A stretch of DNA of 64,000 nucleotides from an uncultured Chlorobiaceae bacterium (GTDB taxonomy: Bacteria; Bacteroidota; Chlorobiia; Chlorobiales; Chlorobiaceae), in the NCBI GenBank assembly GCA_903939765.1, contig CAJAIK010000096.1:1-64000 (forward strand), written 5' to 3'. The notes under the pieces were generated by a model. That model worked only from the letters and a program-made list of their open reading frames with translations, made no database searches and was not told the DNA's origin. Shown in pieces: positions 9,889 to 60,986 of this stretch (the first letter of the stretch is position 1; each line of letters starts with the position of its first letter). A program made the position numbers and the translations under genes.

Positions 9889-11307
9889 GTGATAATGTTT
9901 TGCCATCTCATCCTCTTTATGCAGAATGATCAGCGATTTTCGGAGTTGGTGCTCTTGCGGGAGACCTTTGAGAGCGGCGTAACCCGTGCCCTGTCGTGGA
10001 GGATTTCTCAGCTTCTTGCACTTCAGTCGTTTCTTGTTGAGCGCGAACGCGATATTGCCGCTGCCGTGCATCATGATTTCAGGAAGTCTGCGGCAGAGAC
10101 CTTTTTGACCGAAACGGGATTTTTGCGTGGCGAAATCCGTTTTGCACTGAAGCACCTCGCCTCATGGATGAAGCCTCACCGGGTTTCCATCCCGCTCATC
10201 TATCAGCCAGCAAAAGCCTCTTGCTCGCCTGAACCCTATGGCGTTGTCCTCATCATCGGGGCATGGAACTATCCCTTTAACCTCTCTCTTGCACCCCTCA
10301 TCAGCGCCATCGCTGCCGGAAACTGCGCGTTACTCAAGCCTTCGGAACATGCCCCACGCAGTTCAGCACTCATTGCCGAAGGGGTGGGTCGCTATCTTGA
10401 TCAAAGTGCGATCAGGGTGGTTACGGGGGGGGTGGAAGAGGCAAAGGCTCTGCTTGATGAGCGGTTTGGCTACATATTCTATACCGGCAGCCCTGAAGTT
10501 GGTCGGGAGGTGATGCTTGCCGCAGCCCGCCATCTCACTCCGTTGACGCTTGAACTTGGAGGGAAATCTCCCTGTATTGTCGAAGAGAGTGCTGATATCC
10601 GCGTGGCGGCGCGCAGGATTGTCTGGGCCAAGTTTTTGAATGCTGGCCAGACCTGCCTTGCGCCTGATTATGTTCTGGTGCATGAGCATCAGGAGGAGGA
10701 GTTGCTTCATTTCATGCAGGAGGCCATTACCGACTTTTATGGTGATGAGCCCCGGTTGAGCCGTGATTATCCCCGCATTGTCAATATGAATAACTTCCAT
10801 CGCCTCAAAAAGCTGCTTGATGGCTCTTCAGTCTGGTTCGGAGGGGAGTGCGATCAGGGAGAGCGTTATATCGCGCCCACCATTCTCCGGGGAGTGACGT
10901 CAGCCTCTCCGCTCATGCAGTTGGAGATTTTCGGTCCTCTTTTGCCGGTCATTGCCTATTCGGATCTTTCAGAAGCACTCGACTTCATTCGTCGCCAGGA
11001 TGAGCCTCTTGCGCTTTATCTTTTTTCTTCTGATCAAGATGTACAGGAGCGGGTCGTACGTAACTCCCGAACAGGCGGGGTGTGCATTAATGATCTCTTT
11101 TTTCAGGCGGCGCTTCACCGACTTCCTTTCGGCGGCCTCGGCAACAGTGGATTTGGTGCTTATCATGGCAGGGCGGGGTTTGACACCTTCTCTTTTCAGC
11201 GGAGTGTTCTGCGCCGCTCATTTTTTTTCGATCCGGGCCTTCGCTATCCGCCCTACCGTTGGTGGAAGTTCAGGCTGCTCAAACCCCTTGTCACCTTTTT
11301 TCAGTGA
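9889..11307 (+). CDS. Aldehyde dehydrogenase (ALDH3-like, NAD(P)-dependent)
   Basis: 472 aa. Oxidises aldehydes to acids. Rossmann and active-site motifs: GVVLIIGAWNYPFNL (cofactor entry), LELGGKSPCIV with general base Glu222, NAGQTCLAPDYV with nucleophile Cys256, and FGPLLPVI near the C-terminus. The short class-3 layout (under 480 aa) with a hydrophobic tail suggests membrane-associated fatty-aldehyde oxidation. No good ribosome site precedes ATG 9889; ATG 9919 (MQNDQRFSEL) is an alternative start. Single-gene unit. Confidence 0.9.
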   Translation: MIMFCHLILFMQNDQRFSELVLLRETFESGVTRALSWRISQLLALQSFLVERERDIAAAVHHDFRKSAAETFLTETGFLRGEIRFALKHLASWMKPHRVSIPLIYQPAKASCSPEPYGVVLIIGAWNYPFNLSLAPLISAIAAGNCALLKPSEHAPRSSALIAEGVGRYLDQSAIRVVTGGVEEAKALLDERFGYIFYTGSPEVGREVMLAAARHLTPLTLELGGKSPCIVEESADIRVAARRIVWAKFLNAGQTCLAPDYVLVHEHQEEELLHFMQEAITDFYGDEPRLSRDYPRIVNMNNFHRLKKLLDGSSVWFGGECDQGERYIAPTILRGVTSASPLMQLEIFGPLLPVIAYSDLSEALDFIRRQDEPLALYLFSSDQDVQERVVRNSRTGGVCINDLFFQAALHRLPFGGLGNSGFGAYHGRAGFDTFSFQRSVLRRSFFFDPGLRYPPYRWWKFRLLKPLVTFFQ

Positions 11308-50039: not shown

Positions 50040-50696
50040 ATGGGCGTATTCACTCTACACGCAAGCGATCCACTTCTCTTTGTCGATCGTGCGATACCTT
50101 CCGACCTCCTTGAGGCCATCAGAAAGCTTGAAAGATGGGATGAGCAGGCTCTGGATATGGCCAATCTGTTGATTACCGTCTGGTCAATGGACGCAATTGC
50201 AAGAGCAAATGATCGAGAGGGTATATCGGAACTGCAACGCATTATTCATTTTACTCTTAGTCGGGCGCGCTCTTTATCCACGCTTCCGGAAGAGTTCAGG
50301 TGCCGTTGGCAGGAGGCGAGTGACATGCTCGAAGCGAGGCGTCTCAATCTGGCCCATGCCGACCCTGAGGCGCAACTCGGGCGCCGCCATGTTCCAGAAA
50401 TCCTTCAATGGCTGCTCAGTAACGGGGATCGAGAGTTGCCACAGTCGGAGCTTGTAACGCATCTTGAAGTCACTGCTGGACGAGTTACCCAGCTTATTGG
50501 CCCTCTTGAATCAAGCGGCTTGGTAACCAAGCGGAAACATGGTCGTGATATTCTTTTGCAACTCACTGATATCGGGCGGAAGCATGCTGTAAGCGCACCA
50601 AAGATGGCGGCACCAGTGACAGGTTTTCGCGGGTTACTCTCAACAGACGCCACGATTCAGTCGCACGTGAAAATTGGAAAACTGATTGCAGCATGA
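50040..50696 (+). CDS. Winged-helix (MarR-like) protein of the NACHT locus
   Basis: 218 aa. The C-terminal part (about residues 103-178) is a winged helix-turn-helix: ILQWLLSNGDRELPQSELVTHLEVTAGRVTQLIGPLESSGLV then a wing KRKHGRDILLQLTDIGR. The helical N-terminal ~100 residues (RKLERWDEQALDMANLL) are not recognised. It could be the locus repressor or an adaptor. AGGAGACAGTC precedes the ATG. The stop overlaps the start of the 1722-aa gene (ATGA), so the two proteins are made together. Confidence 0.75.
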   Translation: MGVFTLHASDPLLFVDRAIPSDLLEAIRKLERWDEQALDMANLLITVWSMDAIARANDREGISELQRIIHFTLSRARSLSTLPEEFRCRWQEASDMLEARRLNLAHADPEAQLGRRHVPEILQWLLSNGDRELPQSELVTHLEVTAGRVTQLIGPLESSGLVTKRKHGRDILLQLTDIGRKHAVSAPKMAAPVTGFRGLLSTDATIQSHVKIGKLIAA

Positions 50697-53600
50697 CTCC
50701 CTTCATCGTCACTTTCTACAGCTACAAGGGCGGCGTCGGGCGCAGCCTGCTTGCTGCCAATATTGGTGTTCTTTGCGCCCGGCGGGGCAAAACGCTGCTG
50801 TGGGATCTTGATATCGAAGCGCCTGGGCTGCACAATATCCCGGGGCTGACACCATCAAAACCGGTCAAAGAGGGTTTTTTTGAATGGATGATTGCATGGC
50901 AGGAGTCTGGAAAAGCATCGAACAAAGCTGATTTCGGTAAACTTCTGAAACTCGCGTGCCAGACTCCAGAGCGGGATCGTCTCTTCATCTTGCCTGCTTA
51001 TGGCGATAACAAGGACTTTGCCGGGCTTTTCCAGAGCATCCGCTGGGATGATTTTCTGGTTCGTGACCTCGACAGCGGCCTCGCACTTTTTCGCGGTATC
51101 CTTGATGCTTTCGGCAAGGCCGGTTTCGAAACGGTGCTGCTCGATTCGCGTACTGGCATCACCGACATCGGCGGTCTGCTTGCCGCCCTGCTGCCACACG
51201 CAACTGTTCTTGTCGGCAACTACGGCAGGCAGAATACCAGGGGACTTGCCCATGTTTGGCAAGCCCTTCAACCAGCCAGCGAGGGGCGCATTGCCGCACG
51301 GGGTACGCTGCCGCCCCTTACCCGGTTGCTGGTTGCATCGCCGATTGCTGATGAACTCGATTTGCGAGCTAAAGGAGAGGATATCTGGAAGGAGGCCTTT
51401 GGCCTGGCCTCTACAGAATTGGTCACCATCCCTTTTGATCAGCGTCTGCTTTTCACCGAAGAGCTTTACGCCGCAACACGCCCGGAAACTCCGGTAGCCA
51501 AAGCCTATAACGATCTGGAACGCCGAATCGACAAGGTACGCCAACAGGTTATTGCTGAGAGTGAGTTGGCCAGTCGCAGCGACGATGCTCGTCCCGATCT
51601 GGTCGTCCGCCGCAACAAGGATAGCCGTGAGCAAGGCAAAAGTTTCGAGGAGCGTGTCGCTCATCTCCTGCGTCTGCTTGGCTACACCGTTGAACGGGAA
51701 CAGTTGATCGACAGCAACCGGGTTGATCTGGTTGCCCGCAAGCGTGCCGATTTCGGTCGCGAAGAACTCTATCTGGTTGAGTGCAAGGATCATCAAAGCG
51801 TCATCCCGAAAGAGACGGTACAGATATTCAAGACCTGGCTTGATGGCCCGACTGCCAAAGAGATGCAGGCTCGTGGTATGGTGGTTGCCGCACGCGACTT
51901 CAGCCCGGCGGCTCGAAGCTTTGCGCGAGAGCAGGGCATTCAGGCACTCACCTATGACGAACTGGAACGGAGCCTTTTCGATTTTTTACCCTACCTTGCC
52001 CGCATCCGTCAGCGCTACGAAGCAAGCGCTCTTGCAAGCAACTATGTTGACCAGTATTTGCTCCTTGAAAAGCAGCCCGACGAAAAACCGGTGCCGATGT
52101 TGCCTCATGCTCTTGAATGGGTTTCAGGAGCGGGAAGCCGGTTGTGGCTGGTGCTCGGCGATTATGGTACCGGTAAAAGCACGTTGGTCGATCGGCTTGC
52201 CTACGAACTTGCCCGAAACTGCGAAAACAATCCGGAAAGTCCGATTCCGGTCGAAATCAACCTGCGCCAGTTTCCCAATGCCATTTCGCTCGAAAGCCTT
52301 ATCCGTGAACATCTCGAAGCCGAACTGCGCACCGTGCTCAATCCCGAGATCGTGTTGCACCTGCTCGAAGCCGGGCGCGTAGTGCTCCTGCTCGACAGTT
52401 TCGACGAAATGGGCGTTGCCCAAGCCGGGCGCAGTGTTGAAGAGCAGTTCCGTCAACTGGTGCGTCCGACAGCAAATTCCGGTCGTAACCCACGTGCCAA
52501 CCGGGTGCTCATCACCTCTCGTAGCCACTTTTTCCGTGACAGCAGCAGCGCCAGGCAAGCCGTGCAGGGCGGCGACAAGCTCTTCGAAGCGGATTCAGCT
52601 CTGGGCAAGGCTGCACGAGCTTTCGATGCTACGCTCGATACTTTGCCCGTTTTCACAAAGGAGCAAATTGCCGAGTACTTGCAAAAGCGTCTCGGCATTG
52701 TTGAGGGTGATCAGGCGCGGCGGTTTATCGAAGAGAGATATGGCCTCCAGGATATCGCCTCAACACCCCAGTTGCTCGACATGATTGTCGCCTCTCTTCC
52801 CGATTTGATAAAACAGGGCGAAAAAGTAACCACTGGCTCACTCTACCTGACCTACACAACCCGCTGGTTGAACACCATTCGCCTGAGCCAGGGGGAAGTA
52901 AATGTCGATCACATGCGCGACCTGCTTGAACGCATGGCCTGTGAGCTTTGGAGCAGGCCACGTAACCAGATCCACTACACCGACCTCGCCGTGCTGCTGC
53001 ATCATGAAGGCGGACTCGCCCGCAGCCTCGACAGTGAGCGGGTGGACCTTGAACTGCGTACCGCCTCGTTCCTTGTGCGCAATCCTCTCGGCTATTATAG
53101 CTTTTCGCACCGAAGCTTCCTTGAATTCTTTTTTGCCCAAGCACTTTTCCGTGCACTTAAGGAAAATCATTTTGCAGAAGCGTTGACCTGTGGCCGTATC
53201 AATCCCGAAGCCACCATATTTCTGCTTGCTCTGATCGAATCAGAGCAAAAGAGCTCCGAACTGACCGGAGCTGTCCGTACCATTCTTGCAAATCCCTATG
53301 TTGAAGTCACCTCTGAAAACGCGCTGCTAATCGCTCATCGTGCCGCGCAGCACCGTTTCCAGGAAATTTCGAAAGATCCAGTGCAGCTTCGCTTGGCACA
53401 AAAGCAACTGATTCCTCCAAAAGTAAATTTGAAAGGAGCTCAGCTTGCAGGCGAAAATCTGATATTTCTCTGTGCTGATGAGATCGATTTCAGTAATGCC
53501 GACCTCCGAGGTACGACTCTTTCTTACGCCGTTCTTGATAAAGCTCGTTTTGATGGAGCCCGACTTGACGATGCTGTGCTTGACAATGCAGGCATTGCAG

Positions 53601-55861
53601 AAGCAAGTCTCGTTGGTACCTCACTTCATCGAATCAAAGGATGGCATCTTGACCTGAACCATGCGAAATGCAGCAATGCCTGTTTTGATGGCGCTGACCT
53701 GCGACATCTCCAGGCTTCCAATGCGGATTTTTCCGGTGCGAGCTTGCGCCTGACAAGGCTTGCTGAGGCTCGGCTTGTCGAAGTAAATCTTGCGACAACT
53801 GATCTGACTGGTGCAACATGGCCAAGAGCAGATGGTTATGCTGAAAATTCAGGATTCTCACCGGTCAAACCTCGAATTGCAGGCCTTATTGGTCATTCAG
53901 GCTGGATTCGCGCCTGCGCCTTTTCCCCAGACGGAAAGCGCATCCTCACAGCAGGCGATGACAGTACAGCCCGGCTTTGGGAGGGCGAATCGGGTAAAGA
54001 AATTCGAAGATTTGAAGGTCATTCAGGCTGGATTTGGGCCTGCGTTTTTTCCCCAGACGGAAAGCGCATCCTCACAGCAGGCGATGACAGCACCGCCCGG
54101 CTTTGGGAGGCTAAATCGGGTAAAGAAATTCGAAGATTTGAAGGTCATTCAGGCTGGATTCGTGCCTGTGCCTTTTCTCCGGACGGGAAGCGCATCCTCA
54201 CAGCAGGCATTGGCAGCACCGCTCGCCTCTGGGATGTTGAATCAGGTGAAGAAATTCGACAATTCGAAGGTCATACAGGCCGAATTCTGGCTTGCTCCTT
54301 TTCCCCGGAAGGGAAGCATATCCTCACTGCAGGCTCTGACAGCACCGTTCGACTTTGGGAGGCGGAATCTGGTAAAGAAATTCGACGATTTGAAGGCCAT
54401 TCAGGCTGGATTTGGGCCTGCGCTTTTTCCCCTGACGGGACGTGTATCCTTACGGCAGGCGATGACAGCAGTACTCGGCTCTGGGAGGCGGAATCGGGTA
54501 AAGAGATTCGACGATTCGAAGCTTATTCAGGCTGGATTCGGGCCTGCGCTTTTTCTCCGGACGGGAAGCGCATTCTCACAGCAGGCGATGACAGCAGCGC
54601 CCGGCTCTGGGATGCTGAATCAGGTAAAGAAATTCGGCTGTTCGAAGGTCATTTAGGCTTTATTCGGGCTTGCGCTTTTTCTTCGGATGGGAGGCGCATC
54701 CTCACAGCAGGCGATGACCGCAGCGCCCGGCTCTGGGAGGCTGAATCGGGTAAAGAAATTCGACGATTTGAAGGTTATTCATGCGAACTCAATGCCTGCG
54801 TCTTTTCGCCGAATGGGAAGCATATCCTCACTGCAGGTGATGATCGTACCGCTGGGCTCTGGGATGCAGAACGGGGTAAAGAAATTCGGCGATTCGAAGG
54901 TCATTCAGGCTGGATAAGGACCTGCTCTTTTTCCCCGGACGGGAAGCGCATCCTTACAGCAGGCGATGACAGTACCGCTCGGCTCTGGGATGTTGAATCG
55001 GGTGCTGAAATTGTACGATTCGAAGCTTATTCAGGCTGGATTCGGGCTTGCTCCTTTTCCCCGGAAGGGAAGCACATCCTCACGGCAGGCTCTGACAGCA
55101 CCGCTCGGCTCTGGGATGTTGAATCAGGCAAAGAAATTCAGCGATTCGAAAGTCATTCAGGCTTTATTCGGGCTTGCGCTTTTTCCCCGGACGGGAATAG
55201 TATCCTCACGGCAGGCGATGACAGTACCGCTCGGCTCTGGGATGTTGAATCAGGCAAAGAAATTGGACGATTCAAAGGTCATTTAGACTGTATTCGGACT
55301 TGCGCTTTTTCTCCTGACGGGAAACGAATCCTCACTGCAGGCTCTGACAGAACCGCTCGTCTCTGGGATGTTGAATCATTTAAAGAAATTGGACGATTCG
55401 AAGGTCATTCATGCTGGATTCTGACCTGCGCCTTTTCGCCAGACGGGAAGCACATTCTTACAGCAGGCGATGACAGCGCCGCTCGGCTCTGGGAGAGTGA
55501 ATCGGGTAAAGAAATTTCTCGATTTGAAGGTCATTCAGGCGGGATTCAGGCCTGTGCCTTTTCTCCTGACGGGCAACGCATCCTCACCGCAGGCTCTGAC
55601 AGCACCGCTCGGCTCTGGGAGGCTAACTCAGGATTCGAGTTTTTTGCGAGATCAGTCGCTGGCAATTCGTGGATCTTATGGTCGCAAAGCGAAGGCCGCT
55701 GGGAAGGAGAGGGAACGTTGACCGAACAGTTGCGTTACGAGGACGTCAGCGAAGTGCCGACAGGAGCTCTCGACTGGGTTCCCCGCCACTGGCTTGCCGC
55801 TGACCTACCGGAGTTGCGCGGTCTTACGCCTTTGTCACAGATGAAACCGCATTCAGATTAG
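50693..55861 (+). CDS. Giant NLR-like protein: KGGVGR ATPase, Mrr-like nuclease, NACHT, pentapeptide repeats and 14 WD40 repeats
   Basis: 1722 aa. Domains in order. (1) ParA/MinD-like P-loop with the variant YSYKGGVGRSLLAANIG (residues ~1-290). (2) Restriction-endonuclease (Mrr-cat) domain at ~315-440 with FEERVAHLLRLLGY, Asp345 and Glu363-Cys-Lys365, the D-ExK nuclease core. (3) NACHT at ~480-680 with Walker A GDYGTGKST (489-497) and Walker B VVLLLDSFDE (563-572). (4) Helical region. (5) Pentapeptide-like repeats at ~913-1055. (6) Fourteen WD40 units at 1067-1654. (7) A 68-aa tail. The plan is that of a STAND immune receptor: sensor (WD40), switch (NACHT), effector (nuclease). The function in defence is inferred. 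Confidence 0.88.
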   Translation: MTPFIVTFYSYKGGVGRSLLAANIGVLCARRGKTLLWDLDIEAPGLHNIPGLTPSKPVKEGFFEWMIAWQESGKASNKADFGKLLKLACQTPERDRLFILPAYGDNKDFAGLFQSIRWDDFLVRDLDSGLALFRGILDAFGKAGFETVLLDSRTGITDIGGLLAALLPHATVLVGNYGRQNTRGLAHVWQALQPASEGRIAARGTLPPLTRLLVASPIADELDLRAKGEDIWKEAFGLASTELVTIPFDQRLLFTEELYAATRPETPVAKAYNDLERRIDKVRQQVIAESELASRSDDARPDLVVRRNKDSREQGKSFEERVAHLLRLLGYTVEREQLIDSNRVDLVARKRADFGREELYLVECKDHQSVIPKETVQIFKTWLDGPTAKEMQARGMVVAARDFSPAARSFAREQGIQALTYDELERSLFDFLPYLARIRQRYEASALASNYVDQYLLLEKQPDEKPVPMLPHALEWVSGAGSRLWLVLGDYGTGKSTLVDRLAYELARNCENNPESPIPVEINLRQFPNAISLESLIREHLEAELRTVLNPEIVLHLLEAGRVVLLLDSFDEMGVAQAGRSVEEQFRQLVRPTANSGRNPRANRVLITSRSHFFRDSSSARQAVQGGDKLFEADSALGKAARAFDATLDTLPVFTKEQIAEYLQKRLGIVEGDQARRFIEERYGLQDIASTPQLLDMIVASLPDLIKQGEKVTTGSLYLTYTTRWLNTIRLSQGEVNVDHMRDLLERMACELWSRPRNQIHYTDLAVLLHHEGGLARSLDSERVDLELRTASFLVRNPLGYYSFSHRSFLEFFFAQALFRALKENHFAEALTCGRINPEATIFLLALIESEQKSSELTGAVRTILANPYVEVTSENALLIAHRAAQHRFQEISKDPVQLRLAQKQLIPPKVNLKGAQLAGENLIFLCADEIDFSNADLRGTTLSYAVLDKARFDGARLDDAVLDNAGIAEASLVGTSLHRIKGWHLDLNHAKCSNACFDGADLRHLQASNADFSGASLRLTRLAEARLVEVNLATTDLTGATWPRADGYAENSGFSPVKPRIAGLIGHSGWIRACAFSPDGKRILTAGDDSTARLWEGESGKEIRRFEGHSGWIWACVFSPDGKRILTAGDDSTARLWEAKSGKEIRRFEGHSGWIRACAFSPDGKRILTAGIGSTARLWDVESGEEIRQFEGHTGRILACSFSPEGKHILTAGSDSTVRLWEAESGKEIRRFEGHSGWIWACAFSPDGTCILTAGDDSSTRLWEAESGKEIRRFEAYSGWIRACAFSPDGKRILTAGDDSSARLWDAESGKEIRLFEGHLGFIRACAFSSDGRRILTAGDDRSARLWEAESGKEIRRFEGYSCELNACVFSPNGKHILTAGDDRTAGLWDAERGKEIRRFEGHSGWIRTCSFSPDGKRILTAGDDSTARLWDVESGAEIVRFEAYSGWIRACSFSPEGKHILTAGSDSTARLWDVESGKEIQRFESHSGFIRACAFSPDGNSILTAGDDSTARLWDVESGKEIGRFKGHLDCIRTCAFSPDGKRILTAGSDRTARLWDVESFKEIGRFEGHSCWILTCAFSPDGKHILTAGDDSAARLWESESGKEISRFEGHSGGIQACAFSPDGQRILTAGSDSTARLWEANSGFEFFARSVAGNSWILWSQSEGRWEGEGTLTEQLRYEDVSEVPTGALDWVPRHWLAADLPELRGLTPLSQMKPHSD
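53891..55654 (+). repeat. Fourteen tandem 126-bp WD40 repeats
   Basis: Each unit encodes 42 aa starting at the GH dipeptide (GHSGWIRACAFSPDGKRI... to ...SGKEIRRFE) with no length variation, so 14 units equal two seven-bladed propellers. Units are close to identical at DNA level. Differences cluster at unit positions 5 (W/R/F/E/C/G) and 7 (R/W/L/N/Q), with further change at 17 and 39, while ILTAG, LW and the SPDG turn barely vary. Confidence 0.93.
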
Positions 55862-55913: not shown

Positions 55914-56156
55914 ATGTATCTTTCTGTCATTGGTGTGACTCCGCTGACCGATCACACTTTGATGCTTGAGTTTGAAAAACGGGAAAAAAGAGTTTTTGAT
56001 ATAACACCATATCTTGATACCGGCAAATTTTCTGAATGGCGTGATCCTCTGCTTTTTCGTTCAGTAGCCGTCAAGTATGATTCAATAGAATGGTCGAACT
56101 GGCTGGATCTTGATCCTGAATTTTTGTATGAAAAAAGTGTCGCTGTTATTGTGTAA
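55914..56156 (+). CDS. DUF2442 protein
   Basis: 80 aa, ATG preceded by AGGAGGTTGCA. VIGVTPLTDHTLMLEFEKREKRVFDITPYL and a C-terminal VAVKYDSIEWSNWLDLDPEFLYE match the DUF2442 pattern. The family is often found next to DUF4160 proteins and has been proposed as part of toxin-antitoxin-like pairs; no DUF4160 gene is adjacent here. It lies 52 bp after the giant gene and 36 bp before the DUF4062 gene, consistent with one transcript. Confidence 0.85.
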   Translation: MYLSVIGVTPLTDHTLMLEFEKREKRVFDITPYLDTGKFSEWRDPLLFRSVAVKYDSIEWSNWLDLDPEFLYEKSVAVIV

Positions 56157-56192: not shown

Positions 56193-59100
56193 GTGATGCC
56201 AAACGATACATCCACTATGCCGCGTGATTTCAAGGGAGTTATGGTTTCGAGCACCTTCACTGACCTGAAGGAGCACCGTGCTGCATTGATCAACATTATT
56301 GATCATTCAGGCTTTAAGGCGGTGGCGATGGAGCATGATTCAGCCAAGTCTGACGTGGACGTGATCGACTCTTCGCTTCAGATGGTTAGGGATAGCACTG
56401 CTTATATCCTTCTGATCAGCCACAAATATGGTCAGACACCGGTGTGCACGGACCGGAATCCCGACAAGCTCTCGATTACCGAACTGGAGTTTAACGAAGC
56501 TGTACGACAGGGACGCTCCATTCTGCTTTTCATCATGGGTGACGATCACGCGATAAAGAAGAGTGACGTTGAAAAAGATACGGAGAAGGAAACCAAACTT
56601 AACACATTCCGTGAGCGGGCAAAGAAGATGGGGCCGGATTCGGACGTTCATCGTGTTTATGCTGAGTTCAACAGCCTTGAGGAGTTCAAGGAAAAGGCTG
56701 CCAAAGCGCTTTCCGATCTGTGCCTTGTTCTCCCGAAAAAATATATCAAACCTCCTGGTGGCAAGGTTACAAGGCCGCCCGTTGACAAAAATCATAAAAA
56801 GTACGCAGAGTGTTACCAGAAAATCCTCAAAGAGGAACTGGGTTACATTCGTATGCTTGGGCTTCCGGGTGTTGAGAGCATCAAGGTCAACCTGAACAAC
56901 GATACTTTTGTGCCTTTGCGTCTTTCTGACAGCCATGAAAGAGGAGGCCTTTGTGCAAAAGAGAGTGAACTGCAAGGGGGTGAACATATTCTCTACCCCG
57001 ACGAGATCATGAAGCAGGCTTTCCACGATCGGAGAGGTCGCCGGATGCTTCTTGTTATCGGTGACCCTGGTGCAGGCAAAACAACGCTGCTCAAGTATTA
57101 TGCCTTATGTGCGCTTGAGGATTACACGAAGCTTGGATTTACAGAAGCAGTCAAGGTATTTTATCTGCCATTGCGCGATCTTGTCTGTGACAAGGATGGG
57201 CGTTGCACAGAAAAGCTGCCAGGAACTCTTGCCGGATGGTCAGAAAAGCATCATCAATCAATTGACACGAAGATTTTCACTGACTGGCTGAACAATGAGA
57301 ACTCACTGGTGTTGCTTGACGGCCTTGATGAAATCAGCAATATCGAAGAGCGAAAAGAGGTGTGCCGATGGATTGACAACGCCTTCAGCGGCTTCAGCAA
57401 GGCATTTTTTGTGGTGACTTCACGGGCGACAGGGTACCGCAAGGATGAAGGTATTGAGCTTGCTTCAGAGTACGAACGAGCCGATGTGCAGGACTTTACA
57501 GCGGAGCAGCAGGAGCGTTTTTTGCGCAACTGGTTCACGGCTGCATTCCTGAAAGAGCCTTGTGAGAAGGGCGTTGACGAGGAGAAGTGGCAGGAAAAGC
57601 AAAAAAAGGAGGCCGAAAAACGCACCATTACCATTGTTGCACACCTCAAGGTCGACAAAAACAAGGGGCTGCGTCAACTGGCCGCCATACCCATGATTCT
57701 GCAGATCATGGCTATTTTGTGGAAAGAGAGGGAGTACATGCCGGAAAGCCGTGTTGAACTCTACGATGCAGCGCTCAACTATCTGCTTGAATTCCGCGAT
57801 AAACGCAGGAATATCAAACCCCTGCTCTCGGCAATTGATGCCCGACAGGTACTTGGGCCGATTTCACTCTGGATGCAGGAGAGGCTCAAAAAAGATGAAG
57901 CCGCCAGAATCGACATGCACACTGAAATGCAGGAATGGCTTGAGACGCTGGATACTCCTCCAACAGCAGAAGATTTTTGTGACTATCTGGTCAAGCGCGC
58001 AGGTTTGCTCATTGATACAGGCGGCAAAGAGTATCTTTTCCGGCATAAATCATTTCGTGAATATCTCGCCGGAGTTCAGCTAAAGGAAGACCGTCCATAT
58101 GAGCATATTAACCAGCTTGTTGCAAATTTCGGAGAAGACTGGTGGGAGGAACCACTTCGCTTTTTTATAGCATCAGTTGACGCCAAAGTTTTTGATGCCT
58201 TTATGCAAAAACTCTTTGATGCACCTCAGGGTGAGCAGATGACAGTAAAGCAGCAATTGTTGCTGCAAACAATCATTGAAGAGGCAAAAGGAAAAAAGGT
58301 TGATTCGCTGTGCAAAAAGCTGCTTGAACCGGCGACAACAACAGGTATGCAGTGGGTGATTCTTGACTGCCTCAAAGCTATCAATAAACCGGTAGCGCTT
58401 GATGCGTTGCAGCAGTTCCGGGAGAACAAACTTGCCGGAGAGAACCGGGACGTTATCAATCGGACTGAGGAGGTGATTCTGGCACTTGGAGGTCAATCGC
58501 TAACTTCAAAAGCTGAAAAGAGCATCAGCGGAAAACCGGCATCGTTCCGAAATCCCAATGAACAGAATGCGGAGTACATCCTGATACCGGGCGGAAACTA
58601 CCGGTATTCAGTTACAGACGAAATCGTGGATGTGTCAGATACTTACTTCGCCAAGTATCCGGTAACCAACAAGCTTTACCGCATCTTCATTGCATGGTTG
58701 CAGGCAAAAGAGATGCCGGTTTTGTATTCAGCATTCACCACTGAACTGGATGCTATCGCAAATGATAACAGGTGGGGAAAGGATTTTGGTGACCATCTCA
58801 ATAATGGTAAAGGTGATTTTGCGACACTCTTTCGTTCACGGTATGATGAAGATCGCAAATACGATGGAGAGGATCAGCCGGTGGTTGGGGTCACCTGGTA
58901 TGCAGCCAGAGCCTATTGCCTTTGGCTGTCTTTGCTTGAAGATGACAAGAGACTTTACTTTCTTCCTGATGAAATGGAGTGGGAATGGGCTGCGGGTGGC
59001 AAGCAAGGAACAACGGGACAGGAAGTACGTCGTTATCCGTGGTCGGAAGCGAAGGGTGGGCCCAACTCAACACTTGCGAACTATAATAAAAACATAGGCA

Positions 59101-59351
59101 CAACGACACCGGTTGGGAACTATCCCGACGGGGTGACACCGGAAGGGCTGTATGATATGGCTGGCAACGTCTGGGAGTGGATGGGCAACTGGTATGATAA
59201 AGAAAATGAGTGGCCAGTTCAGCGCGGTTCGTCGTATTATAGCAGTAATGCTGATGCCCTGCGCTGCTCCTCCCGGGGCGCCGACGTTCCGTGGGTCAGC
59301 CTCAACGACGTGGGTTTTCGAGTGATTCGTTCCAGTCCTTTTTCTTCCTGA
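56193..59351 (+). CDS. DUF4062-NACHT-FGE/C-lectin protein, candidate DGR target
   Basis: 1052 aa. N-terminal DUF4062 (residues ~10-110: VMVSSTFTDLKEHRAALINII, LLISHKYGQ, ELEFNEAVRQGRSILLFIM), a TIR/SEFIR-like signalling fold. NACHT domain with Walker A GDPGAGKTT (290-298) and Walker B LVLLDGLDE (372-380). Helical linker. C-terminal formylglycine-generating-enzyme/C-lectin domain from 794 (YILIPGGNYRYSV, PVVGVTWYAARAYC, MEWEWAAGG, MAGNVWEWMGNW) to 1048. The last ~40 residues have the layout of a diversity-generating-retroelement variable region. ATG at 56193 lies 36 bp after DUF2442. A role as an immune sensor is inferred from the architecture. Confidence 0.88.
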   Translation: MMPNDTSTMPRDFKGVMVSSTFTDLKEHRAALINIIDHSGFKAVAMEHDSAKSDVDVIDSSLQMVRDSTAYILLISHKYGQTPVCTDRNPDKLSITELEFNEAVRQGRSILLFIMGDDHAIKKSDVEKDTEKETKLNTFRERAKKMGPDSDVHRVYAEFNSLEEFKEKAAKALSDLCLVLPKKYIKPPGGKVTRPPVDKNHKKYAECYQKILKEELGYIRMLGLPGVESIKVNLNNDTFVPLRLSDSHERGGLCAKESELQGGEHILYPDEIMKQAFHDRRGRRMLLVIGDPGAGKTTLLKYYALCALEDYTKLGFTEAVKVFYLPLRDLVCDKDGRCTEKLPGTLAGWSEKHHQSIDTKIFTDWLNNENSLVLLDGLDEISNIEERKEVCRWIDNAFSGFSKAFFVVTSRATGYRKDEGIELASEYERADVQDFTAEQQERFLRNWFTAAFLKEPCEKGVDEEKWQEKQKKEAEKRTITIVAHLKVDKNKGLRQLAAIPMILQIMAILWKEREYMPESRVELYDAALNYLLEFRDKRRNIKPLLSAIDARQVLGPISLWMQERLKKDEAARIDMHTEMQEWLETLDTPPTAEDFCDYLVKRAGLLIDTGGKEYLFRHKSFREYLAGVQLKEDRPYEHINQLVANFGEDWWEEPLRFFIASVDAKVFDAFMQKLFDAPQGEQMTVKQQLLLQTIIEEAKGKKVDSLCKKLLEPATTTGMQWVILDCLKAINKPVALDALQQFRENKLAGENRDVINRTEEVILALGGQSLTSKAEKSISGKPASFRNPNEQNAEYILIPGGNYRYSVTDEIVDVSDTYFAKYPVTNKLYRIFIAWLQAKEMPVLYSAFTTELDAIANDNRWGKDFGDHLNNGKGDFATLFRSRYDEDRKYDGEDQPVVGVTWYAARAYCLWLSLLEDDKRLYFLPDEMEWEWAAGGKQGTTGQEVRRYPWSEAKGGPNSTLANYNKNIGTTTPVGNYPDGVTPEGLYDMAGNVWEWMGNWYDKENEWPVQRGSSYYSSNADALRCSSRGADVPWVSLNDVGFRVIRSSPFSS
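59220..59330 (+). other. Candidate DGR variable region (VR) at the 3' end of the FGE domain
   Basis: Encodes QRGSSYYSSNADALRCSS then RGADVPWVSLNDVGFRVI. Between fixed codons (CGC, CTG, CGG, CCG, TGG, GTG) most codons end in C or T: TAT TAT AGC AGT AAT, TGC TCC TCC, GGC GCC GAC GTT, GTC AGC CTC AAC GAC. Adenine mutagenesis of AAY codons in a template repeat leaves exactly this NNY trace. No reverse transcriptase or template repeat is in the window, so any DGR acts from elsewhere. Confidence 0.5.
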
Positions 59352-59537: not shown

Positions 59538-60986
59538 TTACGGTTCTGCTATTTCCGCATGGCAATGCTCCTGCTGCATGACCCATTTTCCGAGTGCGAT
59601 AAGAGCATCACGGCTTGGATACCTGATTTGCCGGAGGTCTGTGGCATTAACCTGTGTGTGACCGTTGAAGCTTCGAAAATGCTCATCGACAGCGCTTGTG
59701 TTGAGATACACAGCCAGACCACGTGCCAATGCTTCCGGCAATCCTTTTTTGTTTTCGTGAAAGAGGTTCAGGTGGTTTTCAAAGCCAAGCATGGCTGCAT
59801 CTCCGAATGCGTCGGGTTCAACCACACTTGCCACGATGCGACGTTTTTCTTCCTTGGACGAAAAGCGTCGAACGACACAGTAAAAGGCATTCTGGTAAAG
59901 CCATTTTTCAGTATCAGGGTTTCTCACAATGGCATTCGGTTTTTTCATACCTGCTATAGGCCATCGGCTTTTGATTCCACTGAAATGGCCGGGGTAGAGA
60001 AGAGGTACGGTATCGGCTTCAGGCATGGCGCGCAGATGCTCTTTCAGTCGAAAATCGACAACAGGCCCTGTCGATACCTGTATGCCAAGATCACTCAACT
60101 GACAAGAAATTGCCGGGGAGAATTTTGTGGAATCGTTCTCTCGTGACGTTGGTACGTGGATAAAGCGCTCCCTGTCATCCGGCCATAGGATGCTCTCAAA
60201 TGGATATTCTGTTGTCGCAAGATCATTGAACGTGTCGTCAGTTGATGTGGAGACCGTCACTGGCCCAACACGGCCATCACGTTCAAGCCGAATGATAATG
60301 TTCTCTTGCAACACGGCGTCATCCCTGAACGCCTGGCTGCGAGAGTCGAAGAGGTGGATGTGGCGGATGGCGGCATAATCAAGCAGAAAGTCACGAAACG
60401 GACGATAGTATGGGCCATTGCAGAAACTGCGCGGAATAATTGCTACAATTTGACCTCCCGGGGCGGCCAGGGCTATAGCAAGCGCCACAAAAGCTGAATA
60501 GAGATTGACCGTTTCAATGTCAACATCGCGAAGAAGGAGGCGCTCTCTTGAGTAACTCCCGATTTTTTTGTACGGTGGATTTACAATGGCATGGGTAAAG
60601 TCGTACTCTCTGAATTGAATTGCATTGACTGCCGCTTCAATAAAATCATTTCCGATTATTTCATAAGAGAAGTGAGGTAAAGCGTTGTACTGTGAAAGGG
60701 AGTTTTGAAGTTCTTCATGAATGACGTCGTCAATCTCATAGGCTTTTAACCGGATTGACTGGAAGTTCATATTTCCCTTTGAGCATCGTTCAAGAAATGC
60801 GCTTGAGAGCGAACCTATTCCTGCACCGGCATCCAGCAGGCGGCATTCACCACTTGACTCGGGAAAGAGTCCTGCCATGAACGATGCCGTCGTTGCGGGG
60901 GTAAGATATTGCCCTAACTGCGATTTCTTTTTTGCATCGGTACGCTTTGATACTTTCAGGCGGTTTTTTTCAGCAACGGTAAACAA
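59538..60986 (-). CDS. Adenine-specific N6 DNA methyltransferase (PstI/Eco57I-like gamma type)
   Basis: 482 aa. Motif X GQYLTP (residues 25-30), motif I LLDAGAGIG (50-58), motif IV NPPY (136-139), and a C-terminal target-recognition region with VSTGPVVDFR and HFSGIKSRW. TTG start at 60986 with GGGAGG 11 nt upstream; the first ATG (residue 38) would delete motif X. No cognate restriction gene is adjacent: the next gene on either side is the NACHT-FGE gene or menD. It is convergent with the NACHT-FGE gene, 187 bp apart. Confidence 0.87.
   Translation of the reverse strand: MFTVAEKNRLKVSKRTDAKKKSQLGQYLTPATTASFMAGLFPESSGECRLLDAGAGIGSLSSAFLERCSKGNMNFQSIRLKAYEIDDVIHEELQNSLSQYNALPHFSYEIIGNDFIEAAVNAIQFREYDFTHAIVNPPYKKIGSYSRERLLLRDVDIETVNLYSAFVALAIALAAPGGQIVAIIPRSFCNGPYYRPFRDFLLDYAAIRHIHLFDSRSQAFRDDAVLQENIIIRLERDGRVGPVTVSTSTDDTFNDLATTEYPFESILWPDDRERFIHVPTSRENDSTKFSPAISCQLSDLGIQVSTGPVVDFRLKEHLRAMPEADTVPLLYPGHFSGIKSRWPIAGMKKPNAIVRNPDTEKWLYQNAFYCVVRRFSSKEEKRRIVASVVEPDAFGDAAMLGFENHLNLFHENKKGLPEALARGLAVYLNTSAVDEHFRSFNGHTQVNATDLRQIRYPSRDALIALGKWVMQQEHCHAEIAEP

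Follow-up and report, generated by a model that had tools for sequence, protein, structure and literature searches.

A DUF4062-NACHT-FGE receptor of Chlorobium as a very probable trans target of a DGR on another contig of its genome

Introduction

Near the end of the window (the whole 64,000-nucleotide stretch of DNA that was analysed) lies a receptor gene whose last codons alternate between fixed codons and runs ending in C or T. A preliminary description, made from the sequence alone, proposed that this tip is, or was, rewritten by a DGR located elsewhere on the chromosome. In DGRs (diversity-generating retroelements, such as that of BPP-1 and others), RT and Avd copy the RNA of the template repeat (TR), misincorporating randomly at its adenines; the resulting cDNA, primed at the IMH, takes the place of the variable region (VR). 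The locus thus raises the question of whether a matching template exists in this genome and, if so, what kind of receptor it diversifies.

Results

A conserved receptor locus

The window lies within contig C96 (119,917 bp) of a genome of the green sulfur bacterium Chlorobium (G000; 2.98 Mb, 128 contigs, 99.4% complete). The receptor has the layout of bacterial NLR-like (NACHT/STAND) proteins: An N-terminal effector is followed by a NACHT module with Walker A and B motifs and then by a C-terminal sensor (Table 1), and the Walker motifs are intact in 13 out of 13 orthologues. The VR is located at the 3′ end of an FGE/C-lectin-fold protein, as expected of a DGR target. The predicted model of the FGE domain is of moderate quality (mean pLDDT 73.4, pTM 0.82, with lower pLDDT around 166-208), and a fold search with it matches FGE enzymes, EgtB, and the DGR variable protein TvpA (2y3c). 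The protein has no evident signal sequence, and PADLOC gave no meaningful match for the receptor.

The receptor locus is conserved, with a NACHT-WD40-type gene upstream and menaquinone genes downstream, syntenic in several relatives; some relatives carry two tandem receptors there. The upstream gene (50693-55861) comprises a KGGVGR/ParA-like start, an NTPase, a pentapeptide-like part, and 14 very similar WD40 repeats. Since this gene encodes an NTPase and its upstream half is syntenic in relatives, two large NTPase receptors adjoin. Between them lies an 80-aa ORF (55914-56156), whose DNA recurs beside the receptor in loci L126, L127, L130, L133, and L135. Downstream of the receptor is a Type II (Eco57I-like) methyltransferase gene (59538-60986) that is missing from some relatives; in locus L125 the menaquinone gene lies directly 3′ of the receptor, without this gene between.

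Table 1. Features of the receptor gene and of the template locus (window positions, unless contig C97 is named)
Feature	Position	Strand	Remarks
Receptor gene, DUF4062-NACHT-FGE	56217..59351	+	About 1044 aa; ATG at 56217; mechanical ORF start is GTG 56193
DUF4062 domain, PF13271	56238..56501	+	69 bits, cut-off 24.7; sequence match to solved KpSwz 10wc, E 5e-6
GAG (Glu) in TELEF, putative catalytic residue	56487..56489	+	Aligned with KpSwz A; equivalence suggested by the alignment
NACHT NTPase, PF05729	57042..57542	+	Walker A GDPGAGKT 57060 and Walker B-type LVLLDGLDE 57306, both intact
FGE/C-lectin-fold domain, PF03781, C-terminal	58569..59330	+	123 bits
Putative exchanged tip cassette	59185..59325	+	~141 bp; type-B cassette in its place in sister orthologue G075:C340
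Segment TCG TCG TAT TAT AGC AGT AAT, not templated by the C97 TR	59229..59249	+	5′ of TR homology; varies among paralogues
VR	59250..59333	+	84 bp; matches the C97 TR save at 15 positions, each a TR adenine
Hypermutated codons	59277..59288	+	TR AAC AAC AAC AAT to GGC GCC GAC GTT
Hypermutated codons	59292..59312	+	TR AGG AAC AAC AAC AAC AAC ATG to TGG GTC AGC CTC AAC GAC GTG
IMH-like invariant 3′ end, GGGTTTTCGAGTGATTCGTTCC	59312..59333	+	22 bp identical in TR and all VRs of the window genome
TR	about C97:4889-4972	-	84 bp
RT	C97:3662-4696	-	344 aa; IGNLTSQ and YVDD motifs

A template, RT, and Avd on another contig

A DNA search of the genome with the 3′ end of the receptor found four more full receptor tails, one truncated tail, and the site C97:4885-4975. 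This site, which matches the VR DNA and does not end a receptor gene, is the template. Its sequence reads GCTGATGCCCTGCGCTGCTCCTCCCGG AACAACAACAAT CCG AGG AACAACAACAACAAC ATG GGTTTTCGAGTGATTCGTTCC. The best solved relative of the RT beside it is 8ub7 (E 2e-52, vs. 2e-17 for a group II RT), a member of the BPP-1 DGR RT series; judged by its sequence, the C97 RT is of the DGR type. An Avd is present as well, scoring 103.6 bits against NCBIfam DivGenRetAVD (cut-off 80) and also matching Pfam bAvd when its sequence is joined over the 141-bp contig overlap.

Contig C97 is 5.3 kb long; its ends share these 141 bp, and Avd spans the contig ends. It carries, in order, the 3′ part of Avd, the TR, the RT, a NACHT-FGE receptor that has a VR itself, and, last, the 5′ part of another Avd. 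The start of contig C87 resumes in the same Avd gene, so that, across a contig join that we infer, receptors C87b and C87a are probably followed by Avd, TR, RT, receptor C97, and Avd. A receptor VR, Avd (117 aa), TR, and RT (364 aa) stand uninterrupted on one contig in the related genome G084.

There is no TR-like site within three mismatches in the window, and an RVT_1 search found no RT on its contig C96; the template therefore acts in trans. The preliminary description had advised a genome-wide search for an RT with a template of about 100 bp, and the 84-bp TR indeed matches 59250-59333 except at template adenines. With RT, TR, and Avd all found on C97, its proposal of a DGR acting from elsewhere is borne out, and the window receptor is very probably a target, at a distance, of the DGR that this Chlorobium genome carries on C97. 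As receptor and template lie on different contigs, local DGR scans miss such targets.

The RVT_1 profile has six matches in the genome, of which three are DGR-like and adjoin FGE genes. By reading of the sequences, the RTs of C30 and C3 look similar to group II RTs, and that of C81 to a retron-type RT. We considered the DGR RTs of C87 and C16 as the source of the window template and rejected them because their TRs belong to a different sequence family. These two further DGRs of different type (G000:C87:43.6-46 kb, L052; G000:C16:47.7-50.2 kb, L053) have a 154-173-aa ORF, HRDC-like in look, preceding the RT in place of Avd, and the TR just 3′ of the RT; FGE genes adjoin, one of them broken by TAG (C87:45384-45602). 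Near position 10334 of G000:C116 (L058), a template-like repeat stands between FGE genes with apparently only the end of an RT before it. The RVT_1 search found no RT on contig C116, and this DGR may have lost its RT.

Mutations at template adenines

We read the receptor codons in frame 56220+3k. In the 62 bp before the IMH, the window sequence differs from the TR at 15 positions, and each of the 15 coincides with one of 21 TR adenines (hypergeometric P = 5.8e-10), so the pattern of NNC and NNT codons is beyond chance. The changes comprise nine A to G, four A to T, and two A to C. Adenines are also present within the 22-bp IMH, yet none is mutated; shortly past it, VRs read AGTC versus AATC in the TRs compared, a slight difference of the kind that sets an IMH apart from the IMH* of its TR. 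The two blocks of hypermutated codons are separated by CCG at 59289 and followed from 59313 by GGT TTT CGA GTG ATT (GFRVI). The runs of four (59277-59288) and five (59295-59309) NNC/NNT codons and the GFRVI ending described previously are confirmed by in-frame reading, to which we add two variable codons that had been overlooked (59292, AGG to TGG, and 59310, ATG to GTG). Up to about 1.4e12 different tips can arise from the template over 11 to 12 variable codons, and stop codons are impossible.

A further five-codon run had been placed at 59232. The run exists, with its start one codon off: Position 59232 is TCG, and the NNY codons (TAT TAT AGC AGT AAT) occupy 59235-59249. It does not belong to the templated tip, being outside the TR and not explained by it. 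We accordingly dropped the stretch 59232-59249 as TR-templated, since TR homology begins at 59250 and 59247-59249 shares two bases. The segment 59229-59249 is probably the fossil remnant of a variable region that was once longer, like that of type-B templates (see below). A hairpin after the IMH, as in BPP-1, was sought by folding the 3′ flanks; the folds are weak and not common to the flanks.

Five intact receptor genes in the genome, that of the window included, share the C97 TR. In the other four, mismatches at TR adenines number 11/11 (C113), 13/13 (C97), 12/13 (C87a), and 12/15 (C87b); C113_3010, a truncated remnant, was excluded from the comparison. The N-termini of these four differ from that of the window receptor: Those of C87a and C113 are of a divergent SPGDV/SPSDV type, with C87a weakly DUF4062-like (below cut-off), that of C87b is unassigned, and that of C97, judged by reading, apparently consists of transmembrane segments. 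As five receptors with different N-terminal modules share the TR, one template serves several receptors. A VR and IMH tail without a receptor is found at G000:C113:52063-52116 (L056/L008), where the preceding sequence is similar to the leader 5′ of the C97 receptor, as would be expected had the intervening gene been deleted. Pelodictyon is likewise reported to have a VR outside any ORF (PMC3521204).

Variation among related genomes

Among 86 genomes of the family, we found related VR DNA in 30 and related RTs in 36. At non-adenine sites, the VRs of each genome agree with its own TR. The TR of the window genome, for instance, has GATGCC versus GATGCT in others, and the TR of G083 ends in GTT, as do all six G083 VRs compared, which is not the case for the other TRs compared. 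The window VR likewise has no non-A mismatches with its own TR and two to three with the TRs of other genomes.

Between near-identical loci, the differences within the VR lie only at template adenines. In the G084/G063 pair, with the receptor beside the RT, 11 out of 20 A sites differ versus 0/43 non-A sites, 0/528 upstream, and 0/60 downstream. For the window receptor itself, the orthologue pair G065/G085 differs at 12 out of 20 A sites and at 0/43 non-A sites, with 13/800 upstream. (In the pair G063_C281a/G083_C3d an inserted codon shifts the register, and we disregard the number of non-A differences there.) Substitutions clustered at adenine sites, which the preliminary description had expected of a comparison between strains, are thus present between related genomes. 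The findings that the preliminary description had named as speaking against a DGR, lack of an RT or TR or conserved codons without A-specific mismatches, were looked for and not obtained. These differences between genomes are direct natural evidence for rewriting aimed at adenines in this lineage, and the genus Chlorobium provides a natural series of near-identical loci for comparing hypermutation, cassette exchange, and template loss.

Apparent replacement of the receptor tip

Templates of a second family (type B) are present in G055, G035, G062, and others and absent from the window's genome. Orthologues of the window receptor have tails of one type or the other, A or B. When VR type is mapped on a tree built from the receptor bodies, well-supported branches force it to change four times or more, and its clustering does not exceed that of randomly shuffled labels (128 out of 500 shuffles gave a value as low). 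The sister orthologue in G075 is identical to the window at 197 of 200 positions upstream and 57 of 59 downstream (60 bp) of the cassette, versus 80 of 122 within it. The exchanged stretch begins about 40 bp 5′ of the type-B template start, which favours recombination between receptors over retrohoming as its cause. We infer from this one clear junction, other pairs being more diverged, that the tip cassette has been replaced between template families by recombination.

A two-level, anticipatory repertoire of NADase receptors may thus exist, in which adenine hypermutation in trans from a shared template is combined with replacement of a ~141-bp tip cassette between two template families; this is a tentative proposal, which we hold to be slightly less probable than its denial. 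If this is true, the several receptors that share the template differ in their N-terminal effectors, and sisters whose flanks are 98.5% identical have tips drawn from different template families.

Type-B VR orthologues also occur in G069:C23, G052:C83, and G070:C131 (L105, L100, and L104). We found no type-B TR for them in those genomes, which are 97-99% complete. A first reading as DGR loss was withdrawn, since contigs may be missing; otherwise these VRs would be orphaned targets.

Discussion

Is the receptor still a target?

Could ordinary positive selection or recombination on the binding tip, without any retroelement, have produced this pattern? The tip cassette does seem to be exchanged between template families, as such a process would have it. 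It fails, however, to explain why 15 out of 15 changes fall on adenines of a distant non-coding copy, or why a near-identical pair differs at 11/20 A sites and at 0/631 other sites, and we regard it as scarcely credible. That the receptor is instead a dead or fossil target, its VR diversified formerly and now fixed in the strain, seems improbable, even though the gene is unlinked to the RT, VRs without a matching TR are found in the relatives G069, G052, and G070, and the segment 59229-59249 looks fossil. A long absence of retrohoming should leave non-A changes, as in the paralogue C87b, which has three; over its 84 bp the window VR departs from the resident TR at no non-A site, unlike the sequence just upstream, which differs by 11-17% between orthologues.

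What the receptor may do

For a receptor diversified in trans by the resident DGR, the effector domain suggests a function. DUF4062 is reported as a TIR-like antiphage NADase whose E97 is required for phage defence (PMC13174449). In our alignment, the sequence of the KpSwz structure reads TEKAF where the window protein reads TELEF; taking the A as the E97A change places the catalytic Glu at codon 56487, and this Glu is kept in 13 out of 13 orthologues. By homology and the retained Glu, the window DUF4062 would be a TIR-like NADase. A protein of a Planctomycetota MAG (L137, JADFMM010000056.1, 6001-6390) is 65% identical to the first 130 residues of the receptor (DUF4062), and horizontal transfer of this effector module is possible.

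We propose that changes at the 11 to 12 variable codons randomise anew the ligand-facing side of the FGE/C-lectin tip on an intracellular NLR-like receptor. Binding of a ligand, perhaps a phage protein, by the randomised tip would cause the NACHT module to oligomerise, and oligomerisation would in turn activate the N-terminal DUF4062, leading to depletion of NAD+ and abortive infection. We consider the NADase and abortive-infection part of this mechanism marginally favoured. It would link the anticipatory immunity proposed for bacteria, in which DGRs diversify NLR-like sensors, with an effector domain whose biochemical activity has newly been reported and whose active-site residue is conserved, and the DUF4062 link makes phage sensing by DGR-diversified NACHT proteins testable with a simple readout.

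The diversified receptor might alternatively bind self, surface, or signal ligands, in cell-cell recognition or regulation, and have no antiphage role. DGR C-lectin tips are also carried by surface and signalling proteins in cyanobacteria (PMC7517822) and Treponema denticola (PMC4891356), and the paralogue C97 appears to have transmembrane N-terminal segments. The window receptor itself, with a DUF4062 that retains the conserved Glu, a NACHT module, and no evident signal sequence, looks rather like an executioner acting inside the cell; antiphage NADase activity is reported for DUF4062 proteins (PMC13174449), and DGR-NACHT proteins have been proposed as antigen sensors (PMC10907252). On balance, we think a role other than antiphage defence rather unlikely.

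Comparison with known systems

The receptor resembles the Swarozyc protein KpSwz (PMC13174449; 10wc) in its DUF4062 with the conserved Glu, and it is by sequence that we liken it to this protein, which was shown to deplete NAD+ when it senses a phage portal. The KpSwz sensor is a fixed HTH/winged auxiliary domain, without NACHT or DGR, whereas the window sensor is hypermutable. Since its C-terminal part is NACHT plus FGE rather than a portal-binding HTH/winged domain, we do not file the receptor as Swarozyc.

Multiple remote DGR targets are known (PMC4891356, PMC7517822). In the TvpA DGR of T. denticola, as here, one TR serves several dispersed FGE/C-lectin-fold genes, and the template type has been lost or changed between strains too; its targets are largely predicted lipoproteins, in contrast to the NACHT receptor of the window (PMC4891356). 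Within the same group as our genome, the DiGReF entries for Chlorobium and Pelodictyon give four VRs for P. phaeoclathratiforme (one outside any ORF) and two for C. phaeobacteroides; these entries are counts, without receptor architecture, remote targets, or between-genome variation (PMC3521204).

Closest are the DGR-diversified NACHT-C-lectin proteins of multicellular bacteria described as antigen sensors, for which trans diversification has already been reported (PMC10907252). The targets of DGR 3 of Thiohalocapsa PB-PSB1 and of clade 5D have, like the window receptor, a central STAND/NACHT module and a C-terminal C-lectin tip with the VR; some of the targets have TIR effectors, some are trans-diversified as here, and Chlorobi are named among the carriers of divergent RTs. 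Our system differs in that the N-terminal effector is DUF4062, a word absent from that paper, that a single template is common to five receptors at separate places whose N-termini differ, and that tip cassettes appear to be replaced between two template families. In the literature searched, we found neither the combination of DUF4062 with a DGR nor a description of cassette exchange between template families. What is new here, in a narrow sense, is the DUF4062 effector together with the apparent replacement of a ~141-bp tip cassette between two template families.
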